Origin: Teichococcus aestuarii
GTDB lineage: Bacteria; Pseudomonadota; Alphaproteobacteria; Acetobacterales; Acetobacteraceae
NCBI RefSeq assembly: GCF_003116135.1
Contig: NZ_PDOA01000011.1
Span: forward strand, 1-64,000
Length of the DNA: 64,000 bases
Direction: 5' to 3'
Position 1 is the stretch's first letter, and each line of letters opens with the position of its first letter. Below, one piece after another: positions 5,896-64,000 of this stretch. The position numbers were made by a program, and so were the translations under genes. Below the pieces are notes generated by a model. That model was not told where the DNA came from, searched no databases, and saw nothing but the letters and a program-made list of their open reading frames with translations.

Positions 5896-5924
5896 ACCCA
5901 CCCCTGAGAAGGAGAACAAGCACG

Positions 5925-6197
5925 ATGAACACCGATCGCCTTGAGGGCAGCGCCCAGAACCTGGCCGGCAAGGCGCAGGAAGGCTTCGGCAACCTGACCG
6001 GCGATGAGGGCCACCAGGCCGAGGGCATGAGCCGCCAGGCCGCCGGCCGCGTGCAGGAGGTCTATGGCGAGGCCCGCGACTACGCCCAGCATGCCGGCGA
6101 GCGCGTGGTGCGCCAGGTGGAGCAGCAGCCGGTGACGGCGCTGCTGGTGGCCGGCGCCATCGGCTTCGTGCTGGGGCTGATGACGGCGCGCCGCTGA
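5925..6197 (+). CDS. CsbD-like protein with C-terminal DUF883-type membrane anchor
   Basis: A 90-residue protein. The first 45 residues (MNTDRLEGSAQNLAGKAQE, NLTGDEGHQAEG) are CsbD-like. The C-terminus (VEQQPVTALLVAGAIGFVLGLM plus ARR) is the single membrane helix and basic tail found in ElaB/YqjD/DUF883 proteins, which anchor to the inner membrane and can bind ribosomes. The fusion suggests a membrane-tethered stress protein. GAAGGAG upstream supports ATG 5925. It sits 29 bp after the membrane-protein gene and is followed by two terminator hairpins. Confidence 0.85.
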   Translation: MNTDRLEGSAQNLAGKAQEGFGNLTGDEGHQAEGMSRQAAGRVQEVYGEARDYAQHAGERVVRQVEQQPVTALLVAGAIGFVLGLMTARR

Positions 6198-34598: not shown

Positions 34599-36383
34599 TC
34601 AGTCGCGCTTCGGCAACACCCGGCTCGCCACCTGCCGCGCGGTGTTGGCCAGCACGCTGCCAAGCTCCGGCTCGCCGAACATGCTGCGCATGAAGGCCTG
34701 CGCCTGCTTCAGCGTGATGTGCGGCGGCAGCGGCGGCACGTTCGGGTCGGTGCGGAAGTCGAGCACCACGGGGCGGTCCATGGCCAGCGCCTCGTCCCAG
34801 GCGGGGCCGACGCGCTCGGGGTCGTCCACCGCGATGCCGCGCAGCCCGGCGAGTTCCGCGAAGGCGGCGTAGGAGAATTCCGGCAGGCTCTGCGAGCCGA
34901 GGAACTTCGGGTCGCCGCCCATCACGCGCTGCTCCCAGGTCACCTGGTTCAGGTCGCGGTTGTTCAGCACCATCACCACCAGCCGCGGGTCGGACCATTC
35001 CTTCCAGTAGCGGGCCACGGTCAGCAGCTCGTTCATGCCGTTCATCTGCATGGCGCCGTCGCCCACGATGGCCACCACCGGCCGCTCCGGATGCGCGAAC
35101 TTGGCGGCGATGGCGTAGGGCATGCCGCTGCCCATGCTGGCCAGCCCGCCGGAGAGGGTGGCCATCATGCCGCGCCGCAGCTTCACGTCCCGCGCATACC
35201 AATTGGTGGTGGAGCCGGAATCGGCGGCGATGATGGCGCGCTCCGGCAGGCGGCGGGAGAGCTCCCAGAAGACGCGCTGCGGGTTGATCGGCTCGGCCGC
35301 CTGCATGGCGCGCTTCTCCAGCAGCGCCCACCAATCCTCCGTCCAGCCGCCGATGCGGTCCCGCCACTTGCCGGGCTCCTTGCGCTTCAGCAGCGGCAGC
35401 AGGGCGCGCAGTGTGGCGGCCGAGTCGCCGGCGAGGTTCACCTCCATCGGGTAGCGCAGGCTGAGCATCGAGGGGTTGCGGTCGATCTGCACGCCGCGCG
35501 CCGCCCCCTCCTTCGGCAGGAACTCGGAATAGGGGAAGCCGCTGCCCACCATCAGCAGCGTGTCGCATTCCTGCATCAGCTTCCAGGAAGGCTCGGTGCC
35601 GAGCAGGCCGATCGAGCCGGTGACCCAGGGCAGGTCGTCCGGCACCGCGGCCTTGCCGAGCAGCGCCTTGGCGATGCCGGCCTGCAGCACATCGGCCACC
35701 GCCAGCACCTCGTCCGTGGCGCCGAGCGCACCGGCGCCGACCAGCATGGCCACGCGCTCGCCGGCGTTCAGCGCCTCGGCCGCCTGTTGCAGCGTCTGCG
35801 GCTCCGGCACCACGCGGGGCGCGGCATAGCCCACGCCGCTGTGGATGGTGCCGTGCGCGTGCGGCGGCGTCTCCACCGCCTCCAGCTCCTGCAGGTCGTT
35901 GGGCAGGATCAGGCAGGCGATCTTGCGCTCGCCCTGGGCGATGCGCATGGCGCGGTCGATCAGGTGGCGGATCTGCTCGGGCACGCTGGCCTGCTGCACA
36001 TAATCCGCCACGTCGTTGAACAGCGCGGAGAGGTCCACCTCCTGCTGGTAGTGGCCGCCCAGCGCCGCCCGCGCCTGCTGGCCGACGATGGCCAGCACCG
36101 GCATGTGGTCCGCCTTGGCGTCGTACAGCCCGTTCAGCAGGTGGATGGCGCCGGGGCCGGAGGTGGCCAGGCACACCCCCACCTCGCCCGTGTACTTGGC
36201 GTGGGCGGTGGCCATGAAGGCGGCCATCTCCTCGTGCCGCACCTGCACGAAGGGCATGCGCTCCTTCGCCCGGTCCAGCGCGCCGATCAGCCCGTTGATG
36301 CCATCGCCCGGATAGCCATAGACCCGGCGGACGCCCCATTGCCCGAGGCGTTCCCAGACGAAGTCCCCGACCGTCTTGGCCAT
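34599..36383 (-). CDS. Thiamine-diphosphate-dependent enzyme (pyruvate oxidase/acetolactate synthase-like)
   Basis: A 594-residue ThDP enzyme. The catalytic Glu is in VRHEEMAAFMA, and the ThDP-Mg motif starts GDGAMQMNG and ends with VLNNRDLNQ. The three-domain layout (PYR, central, PP) and YGYPGDGIN start resemble PoxB-type pyruvate dehydrogenases and acetolactate-synthase paralogues. Catabolic ALS is less likely since no regulatory subunit or decarboxylase is nearby. It probably oxidises or decarboxylates pyruvate or a related 2-oxo acid. The 116-bp repeat lies 70 bp upstream of its start, so its promoter must lie within or after that element. Confidence 0.88.
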   Translation of the reverse strand: MAKTVGDFVWERLGQWGVRRVYGYPGDGINGLIGALDRAKERMPFVQVRHEEMAAFMATAHAKYTGEVGVCLATSGPGAIHLLNGLYDAKADHMPVLAIVGQQARAALGGHYQQEVDLSALFNDVADYVQQASVPEQIRHLIDRAMRIAQGERKIACLILPNDLQELEAVETPPHAHGTIHSGVGYAAPRVVPEPQTLQQAAEALNAGERVAMLVGAGALGATDEVLAVADVLQAGIAKALLGKAAVPDDLPWVTGSIGLLGTEPSWKLMQECDTLLMVGSGFPYSEFLPKEGAARGVQIDRNPSMLSLRYPMEVNLAGDSAATLRALLPLLKRKEPGKWRDRIGGWTEDWWALLEKRAMQAAEPINPQRVFWELSRRLPERAIIAADSGSTTNWYARDVKLRRGMMATLSGGLASMGSGMPYAIAAKFAHPERPVVAIVGDGAMQMNGMNELLTVARYWKEWSDPRLVVMVLNNRDLNQVTWEQRVMGGDPKFLGSQSLPEFSYAAFAELAGLRGIAVDDPERVGPAWDEALAMDRPVVLDFRTDPNVPPLPPHITLKQAQAFMRSMFGEPELGSVLANTARQVASRVLPKRD

Positions 36384-36452: not shown

Positions 36453-36568
36453 TCTTCTTTTTCTGAAGAAAAAGAAGCAAAAAGACTTTTCGAGTCTGGT
36501 GTTCCGCTATCCACCCGCGCCACGCCAAACTGACAAAAGTTTTTTGGTTCTTTTTTCCAAAAAAGAAC
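36453..36568 (+). repeat. 116-bp AT-rich intergenic repeat, copy A
   Basis: This copy matches the reverse complement of 63450-63565 at 105 of 116 positions without gaps. One end is a hairpin with arms CTTCTTTTTC and GAAAAAGAAG (36454-36477), the other a hairpin with arms GTTCTTTTTT and AAAAAAGAAC (36547-36568, CC loop). The interior holds CGCCACGCCAAAC and GACAAAAGTTTTTTGG. It starts 6 bp beyond the stop of the DUF2075 gene. It has far lower GC than its surroundings. No transposase or obvious target duplication is seen; it resembles a REP/MITE-like or paired-terminator element. Confidence 0.9.
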
Positions 36569-36574
36569 GTGTTT

Positions 36575-38563
36575 TCAAAACACTCCAACGCCACAGCGTT
36601 GCAGGTAATTGGCCACGGCCTCGAACTCGGCCGGCGGACGGGTGCGGTCCGCCTCGTCGCCGCGCGGCACGTAGATCAGCGTCTCGTACCGGGCGCGCGT
36701 CAGCAGCACGCGGTAGGTGTTGCGCAGGTAGCGCCGCGTCTCGGGCGAGGCCACGCGCTGCCAGTCCTGCCCGGCGAAGCGGCGGGCCTGCCAGCCCTGG
36801 GCGCCGCGGATGAAGTCGCCGCCCCAGGCCAGGCCCACCACGTCCAGCTCCAGCCCCTGGCAGGCATATTCCGTGGCGCAGACCTCCAGCGCGTCCGAGC
36901 CGCGCACATCCGGCCAGCGGTTGAGGAACCAGTTGACCACCTCGTCATCCGCGCCGTGCAGCTGCGCGCCCAGGCCCTCGGCGCGCAGGCGCTTCGCCTT
37001 GGCCGAGCAGACCAGCCCCGCCCGGCGCAGCCCCCGCACCCGGGCGCGCAGCCCGGCCCGCAGCGCGCCGAGGTCGCGCGTCAGGAAGAAGGGCAGCCCG
37101 CCCCCCGTGGAACGATCGGCGGCGATGGCGGCGGCCTCCTCCGGCCGCTCCTCCAGCACCGCCGCCACCCATTGCGCGCTGCGCTCGTGGTGGATGGAGC
37201 GCACCGGTACGGTGAGGTCCAGATCCTCCTCCAGCGTGAGCCAGGGCGGGTGGCCCTCCGCCAGGCGCTGCGCCGGCTCCGCGGCGGAGAGCGCGCGCGG
37301 CGCCGCCACCGCCCCCCAGAGGCCACCGCCCCCTTTGGCCCAACTGGCGCCGATCACCCGGCCCCATTCGGCCAGCCCGGCCTCGCCCGTGTTGATCTCC
37401 TGCCCGTTGCCGATCAGCGCCACGATGACGGACCAGCCCGGCACCCGCGCCATGATCTCCAGCATGTGGCCGGGCTCGGAGGTGGTGAGGATGGAGCTGC
37501 GGCGCTGCGTGTCCCGCCCCGCCTGGGCGGCGTCCCAGGCGCGCTGCGCCTCGTCGAACACCACCACATGCTCGGGCGGCGCCTCGGCCGGGTGGCGGAC
37601 ATGGTGTTCCAGGAAGCGGTGCACGTTCTGCAGCACGGCGCGCGCCTCGCGGCGCGGCTGGCGGGCGCCGCGGCCCTGCGCCTCCCGCGCATCCCGCTCC
37701 AGCGCGCCACGCAGCACCGCCACCAGCGGCGCGTTGCCGGTGAGGAAGGCGGTGCTGCCTTCCGCGGCGGGGCCGAAGGCCAGGTTCAGCCCGCACAGCG
37801 TCTTGCCCGCCCCGGGGATGCCGGTGACGAACACCACGCGCCGCGCCCCCTCCGCCCGCGCCTGCCCGATGGCGGCGCGGATGGCCGCCGTGGTGCGGGT
37901 GAGGTTGCGCGCATCGGCCCGCGCCGTGGCGATGGCCTCCACCCCGTGCCGGTCGAACAGCCGCCGCGCCGCCTCGATGATGGTGGGCACCGGCCGGTAG
38001 GGCGCCGCCTCCCAGGCGGCGGCGTCGAGCGGCGCGGCGGGGGCGGGGATGGCGGCCTGGATGCCGCGCAGCAGCGCGCCGAGGCTGGCGGGGCTGGCGC
38101 GCAGCACCGGCGTCGTCACGCCAGGGAGGAAGATCGGCCACTGGTTCACCGGCGCCGCCGCGCCGCTCGCCAGCAGCAGCGGCACCACGGGGTGCGCCCG
38201 GCTGGCGGCGTGGAAGTCGAACAGGTCGAGCGCGTAATCCTCCACCTGGGCGAGGTCGGGCGCGGCGAAGCCGGTGGCGCCGTGCTTGTATTCCAGCACC
38301 AGCACCGCGCGGTCGGTCAGCAGCACGGCGTCGATGCGGCGTTCCAGCCGCAGCATCTCCACCTCCAGCAGCACCTGCCAGGATTCGCCGCCCGCCTCGC
38401 GCAGCGCCGCCTGGAGCGTGACGATGAGGGCGCGCCAGCTCTCCCGCTGCGCCCGCTGCACCTCCGAGAGTTGCCCGGCCTGGGCGTAGGAAAGCTGCGC
38501 GGCCCAGTCGGCCGCGTCCCGCGCCAGCAGCGCGGCGCCGGTGCAGGAGACCCAGGCCTTCAT
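36575..38563 (-). CDS. PD-(D/E)xK-like nuclease domain fused to DUF2075 (Schlafen-like helicase) domain
   Basis: A 662-residue protein. Residues 60-100 contain RRIDAVLLTDRAVLVLEYKHG, giving D78 and E91-x-K93, a NERD/PD-(D/E)xK nuclease-like core. From about 240 the DUF2075 helicase region has Walker A GIPGAGKT (248-255), Walker B VVFDEAQ (337-340) and motif III IGNGQEIN. The C-terminus (ATEYACQGLELDVVGLAWG, NTYRVLLTRARY) is like superfamily 1 motifs V-VI. Function is unknown; related nuclease-helicases act in nucleic-acid defence or repair. It overlaps the EamA gene by 4 bp and is followed directly by the 116-bp repeat. Confidence 0.85.
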   Translation of the reverse strand: MKAWVSCTGAALLARDAADWAAQLSYAQAGQLSEVQRAQRESWRALIVTLQAALREAGGESWQVLLEVEMLRLERRIDAVLLTDRAVLVLEYKHGATGFAAPDLAQVEDYALDLFDFHAASRAHPVVPLLLASGAAAPVNQWPIFLPGVTTPVLRASPASLGALLRGIQAAIPAPAAPLDAAAWEAAPYRPVPTIIEAARRLFDRHGVEAIATARADARNLTRTTAAIRAAIGQARAEGARRVVFVTGIPGAGKTLCGLNLAFGPAAEGSTAFLTGNAPLVAVLRGALERDAREAQGRGARQPRREARAVLQNVHRFLEHHVRHPAEAPPEHVVVFDEAQRAWDAAQAGRDTQRRSSILTTSEPGHMLEIMARVPGWSVIVALIGNGQEINTGEAGLAEWGRVIGASWAKGGGGLWGAVAAPRALSAAEPAQRLAEGHPPWLTLEEDLDLTVPVRSIHHERSAQWVAAVLEERPEEAAAIAADRSTGGGLPFFLTRDLGALRAGLRARVRGLRRAGLVCSAKAKRLRAEGLGAQLHGADDEVVNWFLNRWPDVRGSDALEVCATEYACQGLELDVVGLAWGGDFIRGAQGWQARRFAGQDWQRVASPETRRYLRNTYRVLLTRARYETLIYVPRGDEADRTRPPAEFEAVANYLQRCGVGVF

Positions 38564-62376: not shown

Positions 62377-63171
62377 ATGGACGGCTACCAGAACCAGACC
62401 GAGGATTCCTGGGAGGTCGCGGGCCGCCGCTTCCACTCGCGCCTCGTGGTTGGCACCGGGCGGTACAAGTCGCTCGAGGAGACGGCGGCGGCCATCGAGG
62501 CCAGCGGCGCCGAGATGGTGACGGTGGCGGTGCGCCGGGTGAACCTGGCCGACCGCAACGCGCCCATGCTGCAGGATTTCGTCGATCCGAAGCGCTACAC
62601 CTACCTGCCCAACACGGCGGGCTGCCACACGGCGCAGGAGGCGGTGCGCACCCTGCGCCTCGCCCGCGAGGCCGGCGGCTGGAACCTGGTGAAGCTGGAG
62701 GTGCTGGGACCGCCGCCCTTCCTCTACCCAGACATGCCCGCCACCTTCGAGGCCGCCGCCGCCCTCATCCAGGACGGCTTCCAGGTGATGGTCTACTGCG
62801 CCGACGATCCGCTGGCGGCGAAGCGGCTGGAGGAGATGGGCTGCGTGGCGGTGATGCCGCTCGGCGCGCCGATCGGCTCCGGCCTCGGGCTCAGCAACCC
62901 CTTCATGCTGCGCTCCATCATCGAGCAGGCGAAGGTGCCGGTGCTGGTGGATGCCGGCATCGGCACCGCCAGCGAGGCGGCGCAGGCGATGGAGCTGGGC
63001 TGCGACGCGGTGCTGCTGAACTCCGCCATCGCCCATGCCAAGGACCCGGTGCGGATGGCGCGCGCCATGAAGGCGGGGGTGGAGGCCGGGCGGCACGCGC
63101 ATCTCGCCGGCCGCATGCCCCGCAACTACGCCGCCGACGCCTCCAGCCCGCTCTCCGGGCTGATCCGGTGA
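62377..63171 (+). CDS. thiG: Thiazole synthase ThiG
   Basis: A 264-residue TIM barrel that forms the thiazole phosphate of thiamine from deoxyxylulose 5-phosphate, dehydroglycine and ThiS sulfur. [14 protein letters not shown], the Schiff-base Lys in [22 protein letters not shown] and [20 protein letters not shown] are the conserved blocks. It follows thiS by 4 bp. thiO, thiE and thiC are not in the window. Its stop overlaps the next GTG start. Confidence 0.97.
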
Positions 63172-63440
63172 GGCGGGCGGCGCTGCTGGCCGGGCTGGCC
63201 CTGGCCAGCCTGGCCCCGGCGCAGGCCCCGGCCCAGACCACCCAGCCCGGCATCGAGACGCGCTACGAGGAGCTGACCATCCCGCTCCAGGCGCTGCTCG
63301 ACGATGGCTGGGAGATCGTGGACATGGCGGGCAATCTCGGCGGCATCGCCTACCTGCTCCGCAAGAAGGGCAAGTGGGTCACCTGCCAGCTGGTCAGCCG
63401 GCGCGAGGATACGCGCAGCCGCTGCATGGCGATGAACTAG
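63168..63440 (+). CDS. Small exported protein coupled to thiG
   Basis: A 90-residue hypothetical protein with a GTG start at 63168 that overlaps the thiG stop (GTGA). A signal peptide ([22 protein letters not shown]) precedes a compact domain ([42 protein letters not shown]). The two Cys (about residues 75 and 86) could form a disulfide. Function is unknown; coupling to thiG may be accidental. It is followed 10 bp later by the second 116-bp repeat. Confidence 0.75.
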
Positions 63441-63449
63441 AAAGCAATT

Positions 63450-63565
63450 GTTCTTTTTTGAAAAAAAGAACCAAAAAACTTTTGTCGGTTTGGCGTGGCG
63501 CTGACGGATAGCGGGACGCCAAACTGGAGAAGTCTTTCTGCTTCTTTTTCTTCAGAAAAAGAAGA
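63450..63565 (-). repeat. 116-bp AT-rich intergenic repeat, copy B
   Basis: Reverse-strand copy of the element at 36453-36568 (11 mismatches, no gaps). Its hairpins are GTTCTTTTTT/AAAAAAGAAC (TC loop) near 63450-63471 and CTTCTTTTTC/GAAAAAGAAG near 63541-63564. It exactly fills the gap between two convergent genes, 9 bp from each stop codon. It would act as a bidirectional end element there. Confidence 0.9.
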
Positions 63566-63574
63566 ATTCTTCCG

Positions 63575-64000
63575 TCAATGGGCGTCCCCGCCGCCGCCCG
63601 GGCCGGGGCGGCGCAGGAACAGCACCAGCGGCAGCGAGGCCAGGAAGCAGAATGCCATGGCCAGGAGCGTGTCGTTGTAGGCCAGCACCAGCGCCTCCTG
63701 CGCCACCAGCGCCTTGATGCGCGCCAACGCCGCCACGTCCGCCGCCGCCTCGCCCAGCCGCCCCGCATAGGCGCCGGCCAGCGTGTCCTGGTAGGCGAGC
63801 ACCCCCTCCCGCGCCCAGTTCACCTGCTCGGAGAGGTGCAGCCGGTGCAGGTAGGAGCGGTCCGTCGCCAGGGTGTTGATGGCGGCCAGCCCCACCGCGC
63901 CGCCCAGGTTGCGCATCAGGTTGTAGAGGCCGGAGGCACCCTTCAGCGCCGCGGGCGGGATGGTGCCGAGCGCCATCTGGTTGATCGGCGCCATGCACAG
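63575..64000 (-). CDS. EmrB-type DHA2 MFS efflux permease, C-terminal part
   Basis: The 3' 142 codons of a gene whose start lies beyond the window. INQMALGTIPPAALKGASGLYNLMRNLGGAVGLAAINTLATDR is the family motif C-like stretch of DHA2 (14-helix) exporters, followed by the last helix (LAMAFCFLASLPLVLFLRR) and a short Gly-rich tail. EmrB partners with EmrA to expel hydrophobic drugs; emrA is not visible. It ends 9 bp from the repeat element. Confidence 0.92.
   Translation of the reverse strand: MCMAPINQMALGTIPPAALKGASGLYNLMRNLGGAVGLAAINTLATDRSYLHRLHLSEQVNWAREGVLAYQDTLAGAYAGRLGEAAADVAALARIKALVAQEALVLAYNDTLLAMAFCFLASLPLVLFLRRPGPGGGGDAH

Follow-up and report, generated by a model that had tools for sequence, protein, structure and literature searches.

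A ~117-bp palindromic repeat family at gene 3′ ends in Acetobacteraceae, a candidate bidirectional terminator or RNA-barrier module

The window, a 64,000-nt stretch of a Teichococcus aestuarii contig (NZ_PDOA01000011.1, positions 1 to 64,000), contained two copies of a repeat, copy A on the plus strand (36453..36568) and copy B on the minus strand (63450..63565), both delimited with BLAST and alignment. The copies aligned over 116 positions with 91% identity (E 5e-40), in agreement with the gap-free near-identity in inverted orientation described in an earlier sequence-only reading. Copy A was located between two minus-strand genes: its right end was 6 bp from the stop of a gene encoding an SLFN-g3 DNA/RNA helicase domain protein (36575..38563; PF09848, E 4e-68) and its left end was 69 bp from the start of a gene encoding a thiamine pyrophosphate-requiring protein (34599..36383; NF006129, 1057 bits, cut-off 724). 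Among named homologues, that of Pseudoroseomonas vastitatis was closest to the gene next to copy A (87%). Copy B was flanked by convergent genes with stop codons 9 bp away on either side, a 90-aa plus-strand gene without a family match (63168..63440) and a minus-strand gene cut by the window edge (63575..63994, from gene context). The latter resembled the end of an EmrB-type efflux permease (TIGR00711, a partial match of 47.7 bits, below the cut-off).

In copy A, the left arm (36453..36488) comprised the hairpin CTTCTTTTTC-TGAA-GAAAAAGAAG and the A-rich CAAAAAGACTT, with an exact 34-mer at 36455–36488, and the right arm (36536..36568) comprised AAAGTTTTTTGG and the hairpin GTTCTTTTTT-CC-AAAAAAGAAC, with an exact 21-mer at 36536–36556. 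The corresponding parts of copy B, all on the minus strand, were the left arm (63530..63565; exact 24-mer at 63540–63563), the central stem-loop (63479..63533, from RNA folds) and the right arm (63450..63482; exact 21-mer at 63462–63482). The near-perfect hairpins previously noticed at both element ends were present in copy A, at 36454–36477 (left) and 36547–36568 (right). Three features had escaped that reading: a third stem-loop in the middle of the element, indicated by RNA folds (36485..36539 in copy A, ACTTTT...AAAAG with a GC-rich core); base-pairing between the two arms, which makes the whole element an imperfect palindrome; and the membership of copies A and B in a family occupying at least 47 places in the own genome.

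BLAST of the own genome (5.2 Mb, 106 contigs) returned 52 rows representing 40 places, since the element is self-complementary and 12 of the rows were known places matched on the opposite strand. A left-arm 24-mer search added seven places, giving the total of at least 47; these seven were used for gene context only. Five truncated places among the 40 were excluded from the fold, frame and flank counts, leaving 35 full copies, and two short-centred copies were also excluded from the alignment, leaving 33. In a full copy of approximately 117 bp, a left and a right arm enclosed a GC-rich stem-loop of variable sequence. Between the 33 aligned copies, identity was 97.8% in the left 36 columns, 91.2% in the right 33 columns and 62.2% in the centre. 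The alignment confirmed the 10-bp left hairpin followed by CAAAAAGACTT, and the right arm was AAAGTTTTTTGG followed by the hairpin TTCTTTTTT-nC-AAAAAAGAA. The arms matched each other in reverse, as terminal inverted repeats (12 places had a match on both strands). In the congener G006, the left arm, centre or right arm was individually missing at various sites, and solo right arms began at a stop codon. At three contig ends of the own genome (C19:1-1700, C18:140 and C13:102134), the central hairpin was broken by a sequence ending or starting with TCTAACAGGCC, which looks like one insertion sequence inserted in the hairpin. No description of the repeat was found in open-licence PMC text, including a search with five sequence stretches.

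Gene context was derived from a small gene finder trained on the window, with an annotation check at two plasmid sites. The earlier suggestion of rule-like placement at gene ends held: the 47 places in the own genome were 32 convergent, 12 tandem and no divergent gaps, with three at contig edges (44 of 47 with readable neighbours). The 58 gaps of the window itself comprised 6 convergent, 46 tandem and 6 divergent gaps, and the convergent enrichment of the 47 places relative to these gaps was significant (Fisher p 7e-11). The first 40 places had 66 sides that faced a stop codon, of which 57 were 0–13 bp from it (median 6), and at 6 of the 66 the distance was negative, i.e. the neighbouring gene ended inside the element. 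The same preference was observed in congeners, where elements were present in 22/48 convergent, 18/185 tandem and 1/48 divergent gaps of G006 (324 kb sampled), in 6/52, 9/204 and 1/52, respectively, of G010, and in 7/60, 11/251 and 1/60 of G015. An independently annotated record pair, plasmids of Pseudoroseomonas cervicalis, had the same placement at two of three places viewed (one tandem, one convergent). Five of the 12 tandem copies in the own genome lay ≤25 bp ahead of the next start. The cobalamin cluster contained three copies, two of them at cobW/cobN and cobI/cobJ and retained there in sister species. These two were located 3–11 bp past one gene and 6–7 bp ahead of the next, a spacing too tight for a promoter downstream of them.

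Eight RNA folds of four copies had z-scores of −3.6 to −8.2 and switched between three hairpins and one long hairpin with paired arms. A hairpin followed by a T-tract (5–7 T within the next eight bases) occurred on both strands in all 35 full copies, with mean hairpin energies of −23 kcal/mol on one strand and −25 kcal/mol on the other. A simple terminator scan (loop 3–8), which performed at chance level, detected nothing in copy A or B. RNAalifold of the 33 copies gave a covariation term of −0.08, with both sides changed in 1 of 25 pairs. Pairing of own halves was slightly better than that of swapped halves (p 0.048), and the own half was the best of all in 2 of 33 copies. Between genera, stems persisted with unlike sequence: central regions had a mean z of −3.3, with 15 of 24 below −2 (24 copies from 13 genomes; 7 of the 31 copies in the between-genus set had no recognisable right arm). 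A scan of the copy A region against Rfam 15 yielded no family at threshold (best 27.8 bits, 55.8 required).

The left-arm 34-mer (≤1 mismatch) was detected in 75 of 397 sampled Acetobacteraceae genomes, representing 27 of 102 genera, with a maximum of 252 copies (G208). This supported the earlier reading, which had suggested similar AT-rich tails in the family. The reversed 34-mer, used as a control, had no match in the family genomes sampled. With ≤2 mismatches, none of the 380 alphaproteobacteria sampled outside the family had the 34-mer; the same search matched 2 of 385 genomes, both Acetobacteraceae. The genus of the window was heterogeneous, with 41 copies of the 34-mer in the own genome, 216 in G006 and 0–2 in several congeners. 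Because these searches used the left arm, the family-wide counts select for that arm, and the right arm is unselected. Exact copies of the right-arm 21-mer numbered 334 in G006, 52 in G015, 46 in G010 and 29 in the own genome; of 17 congeners, 11 had none. Outside the genus, the left arm was unchanged, the hairpins of the right arm were genus-specific and the centres were unlike, with an identity of 53% between genera and 47% after shuffling. The right arms of G327 and G095, for example, had genus-specific letters and retained the hairpin.

The exact 34-mer was also present in 15 stretches of 13 IMG/VR contigs. Twenty proteins from six of these phage loci were tested, and 13 had matches to families of head, tail or packaging proteins, one of these matches being as weak as E 4e-4. 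The phage copies were situated among co-directional late genes: one contig (L318) carried three copies inside a terminase–portal–scaffold–major head–sheath series, and another (L314) one copy between terminase and portal. Two of the copies in L318 were identical across the whole element, with unrelated flanks. A collection of named phages gave partial right-arm matches only. In a 6.6-kb record of Microviridae sp. from cattle blood (MG945182.1), 34 bases at 5908–5941 were 97% identical to the right arm. At several IMG/VR sites (L315, L319, L321 and L327), a solo reversed left arm was joined to a conserved stretch containing GGAGTATTCCTAAAAATCCATAG, shortly upstream of phage genes; this arrangement may be a phage-specific leader.

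Turnover of the element was followed in G010 and G015, which were syntenic over approximately 400 kb, the longest pieces being 89–95% identical. Among 17 elements or arms of G010, 13 had an element at the same place in G015, one shared only its left flank, two lay at inversion ends and one was absent. Orthologous centres were 87% identical (11 pairs) and non-orthologous centres 77%; the centre type was swapped in one of the 11 pairs, and the left-arm variant GAAG(C/T)TTTCTTTCAG differed in three. This second form of the left arm, with (C/T)TTTCTTTCAG in place of the usual CAAAAAGACTTTTTCAG after the hairpin, alternated at the same site between the two genomes. Both breakpoints of a 5-kb inversion (G010:C495:149190-154259 versus G015:C4, approximately 2902573–2907280) were in oppositely oriented copies, which fits recombination between copies, or possibly an assembly error, since G010 is a gapped scaffold.

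Empty sites in some sister species were found in the cobalamin cluster. At cobW/cobN, the element was present in the own genome, G005, G006 and G015, and the site was empty in G008, with stop and start 3 bp apart. At cobI/cobJ, it was present in the own genome, G006 and G015; the site was empty in G005, with overlapping stop and start, and in G008, with stop and start close together. For copy A of the window, no clean insertion was found in the relatives examined: the named relatives (L067–L073) had different neighbours upstream of the homologous gene, and in G005 (flanks 93% and 87% identical) the gap held other palindromes. In G015, a stretch at the counterpart of copy A resembled, by eye, a worn type-2 centre with a T-tract. 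Six congeners could be mapped on both flanks of copy B (G015, G010, G011, G012, G006 and G009); all lacked the element, and the gap contained other sequence, often other palindromes. Examples of these palindromes were GAGGGGGCTTTGCCCCCTC, GGGGACAGGGTCCCC, GAGAGGGGCAAAGCCCCTCTC and GGGGGAATGAATTCCCCC, seen at the counterparts of site B in G015, G010 and G006 and of site A in G005. It seems that terminator-like families take each other's place at a given site.

We consider it fairly probable, given the position and the hairpin with its T-tract from which this reading is inferred, that the element is a bidirectional terminator or RNA-barrier module, a ~117-bp palindromic 3′-end family spreading through Acetobacteraceae. 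It probably marks or protects message ends in the own bacterium and in many relatives. Transcription entering from either side would yield an RNA in which the central hairpin forms and is followed by a U-tract, and the module would end or protect the 3′ ends of both neighbouring messages. At convergent junctions it would act as a bidirectional intrinsic terminator, and inside operons as a partial terminator or RNA-stability barrier. Whole elements would be copied to give new ones, phages being one of the carriers, and copies already in place would swap parts through recombination in the identical arms. Of the functions proposed in the sequence-only reading, a terminator or RNA-stability module fits best, with gene-end position and the hairpin/T-tract in its favour and the scarce covariation, the negative scan and the intra-operon copies against it. 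The copies in the cob operon and the absent covariation count against strong termination everywhere. Since the cob and phage copies leave no room for a promoter, covariation within the own genome is scarce and the scan was negative, full termination is expected at convergent sites, and copies inside operons would terminate partially or protect the RNA.

Terminator function fails to account for the exact letters of the arms. In the own genome, the 24-mer (searched with ≤2 mismatches) was exact at 41 of 44 places. Three congeners, sampled over 1.12 Mb, contained the 34-mer 45 times exactly and five times with one mismatch, never with two or three, once with four and once with seven; the background started at ≥8. 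Despite these near-exact left arms, the centres of the own copies differed by 38%. A recent burst would have given like centres and neutral ageing would have given decayed arms, so the pattern requires selection acting on the letters, homogenisation through recombination, or the two together. A tentative possibility is that a trans-acting factor specific to the family recognises the arms as its signal and that the arrangement of hairpins at gene ends is secondary, by analogy with the uptake-sequence terminators of Neisseria. Candidates for such a factor would be recombinases or transposases, termination factors that bind RNA or DNA, and receptors for DNA uptake. The 34-nt left arm, letter-exact in most copies across 27 genera around a free centre, speaks for such a signal, as do modules that occur singly, with the left arm, centre or right arm absent, and right arms that vary by genus and keep their hairpin (G327, G095). 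However, no such factor was identified, gene conversion and phage transfer could also keep the arms alike, and an arm of 34 nt in 41–252 copies is unlike uptake sequences, which are 9–11 nt long and generally present in at least 1,000 copies according to PMC1852404. In a more specific and equally tentative form, a putative factor specific to Acetobacteraceae, also carried or used by their phages, would recognise the arms and both place and keep the modules at gene ends. The element would then be a bipartite, horizontally exchanged signal in which invariant arms flank a free hairpin core and which sets the format of transcription-unit ends.

A selfish, MITE-like miniature element with no host function, whose bias towards gene ends would result from harmful insertions elsewhere, appears rather unlikely. 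The MITE proposal of the earlier reading was borne out as to terminal inverted repeats and empty sites and failed as to target-site duplication. The patchy copy number (41 in the own genome, 216 in G006, 0–2 in several congeners) and the exact whole-element duplicates in phage contig L318 also favour a selfish element. Against it, the mean longest flank match of the 35 copies was 0.97, compared with 0.84 for swapped flanks, which indicated no target-site duplication; the preference for convergent over tandem gaps exceeds mere avoidance of genes; hardly any left arms are decayed, although centres differ by 38%; and no parent transposon was found, the systematic search being for PF01797 only. 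Inverted continuation into the flanks was likewise not detected (3.17 versus 3.15), and the flanks were purine-rich on the left and pyrimidine-rich on the right. The REP-like identity also proposed did not stand in the strict sense and was rejected: neither a GTAG nor a CGTC tag was present at the aligned ends of the 33 copies, and no PF01797 (RAYT-type) protein was found in the own genome. Across the 22 genomes searched, PF01797 was detected in three of the 12 that were rich in the element and in none of the 10 that were poor in it. A mobile C-terminal tail or small protein reading through the element is highly improbable, even though only 3 of 35 copies contain a stop in the frame for which coding constraint had been proposed and a few neighbouring genes end within the element (6 of 66 sides), because the copy lengths span all three frames (6, 14 and 15 of 35), the ..SFLVLF tail is kept in frame in only 10 of 35, the copies lie outside called genes save for end overlaps, and the arms are conserved at every codon position.

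If the terminator or RNA-barrier reading holds, an entire bacterial family possesses a gene-end marker that is interchangeable and moves horizontally. Sister species holding different palindromes between the same stop codons would then offer a natural test of terminator gain and replacement. The undecayed arms next to free centres pose the question of selection by a factor versus homogenisation by recombination and phages. For annotation, the AT-rich lysine/phenylalanine tails at these elements are not protein.

On the features tested, the element is not a REP/RAYT repeat or a DNA-uptake sequence, and its status as a MITE is unproven. ERIC-like and other enterobacterial palindromes of 100–170 bp are of similar length, imperfect and intergenic, and are thought to be non-autonomous mobile elements; ERIC is not known to share the sequence of the element or to have invariant arms around a free centre. 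Bidirectional intrinsic terminators share with the element the A-tract, hairpin and T-tract on both strands. However, ordinary terminators are not known to have 34 identical letters in common across genera, and the element has additional terminal hairpins and was missed by the simple scan. REP/BIME-RAYT sequences are, according to PMC3733652, likewise intergenic palindromes that prefer convergent and unidirectional gaps and vary in copy number among relatives, whereas the element has no GTAG or CGTC tag at its ends and the own genome no PF01797; in the same paper, CGTC repeats are said to be missing in Acetobacteraceae. By analogy, the element's mode of action would be closest to that of the terminators that Neisseria forms from uptake sequences; in Neisseria and Pasteurellaceae, a short genome-wide repeat often forms an inverted-pair terminator hairpin at gene ends (Kingsford 2007, PMC1852404). 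In contrast to these, its repeated arm is 34 nt long and occurs in 41–252 copies in rich genomes, a size and number (at most 252 copies found) for which a DNA-uptake sequence was rejected, and its hairpin core is a separate, variable segment.
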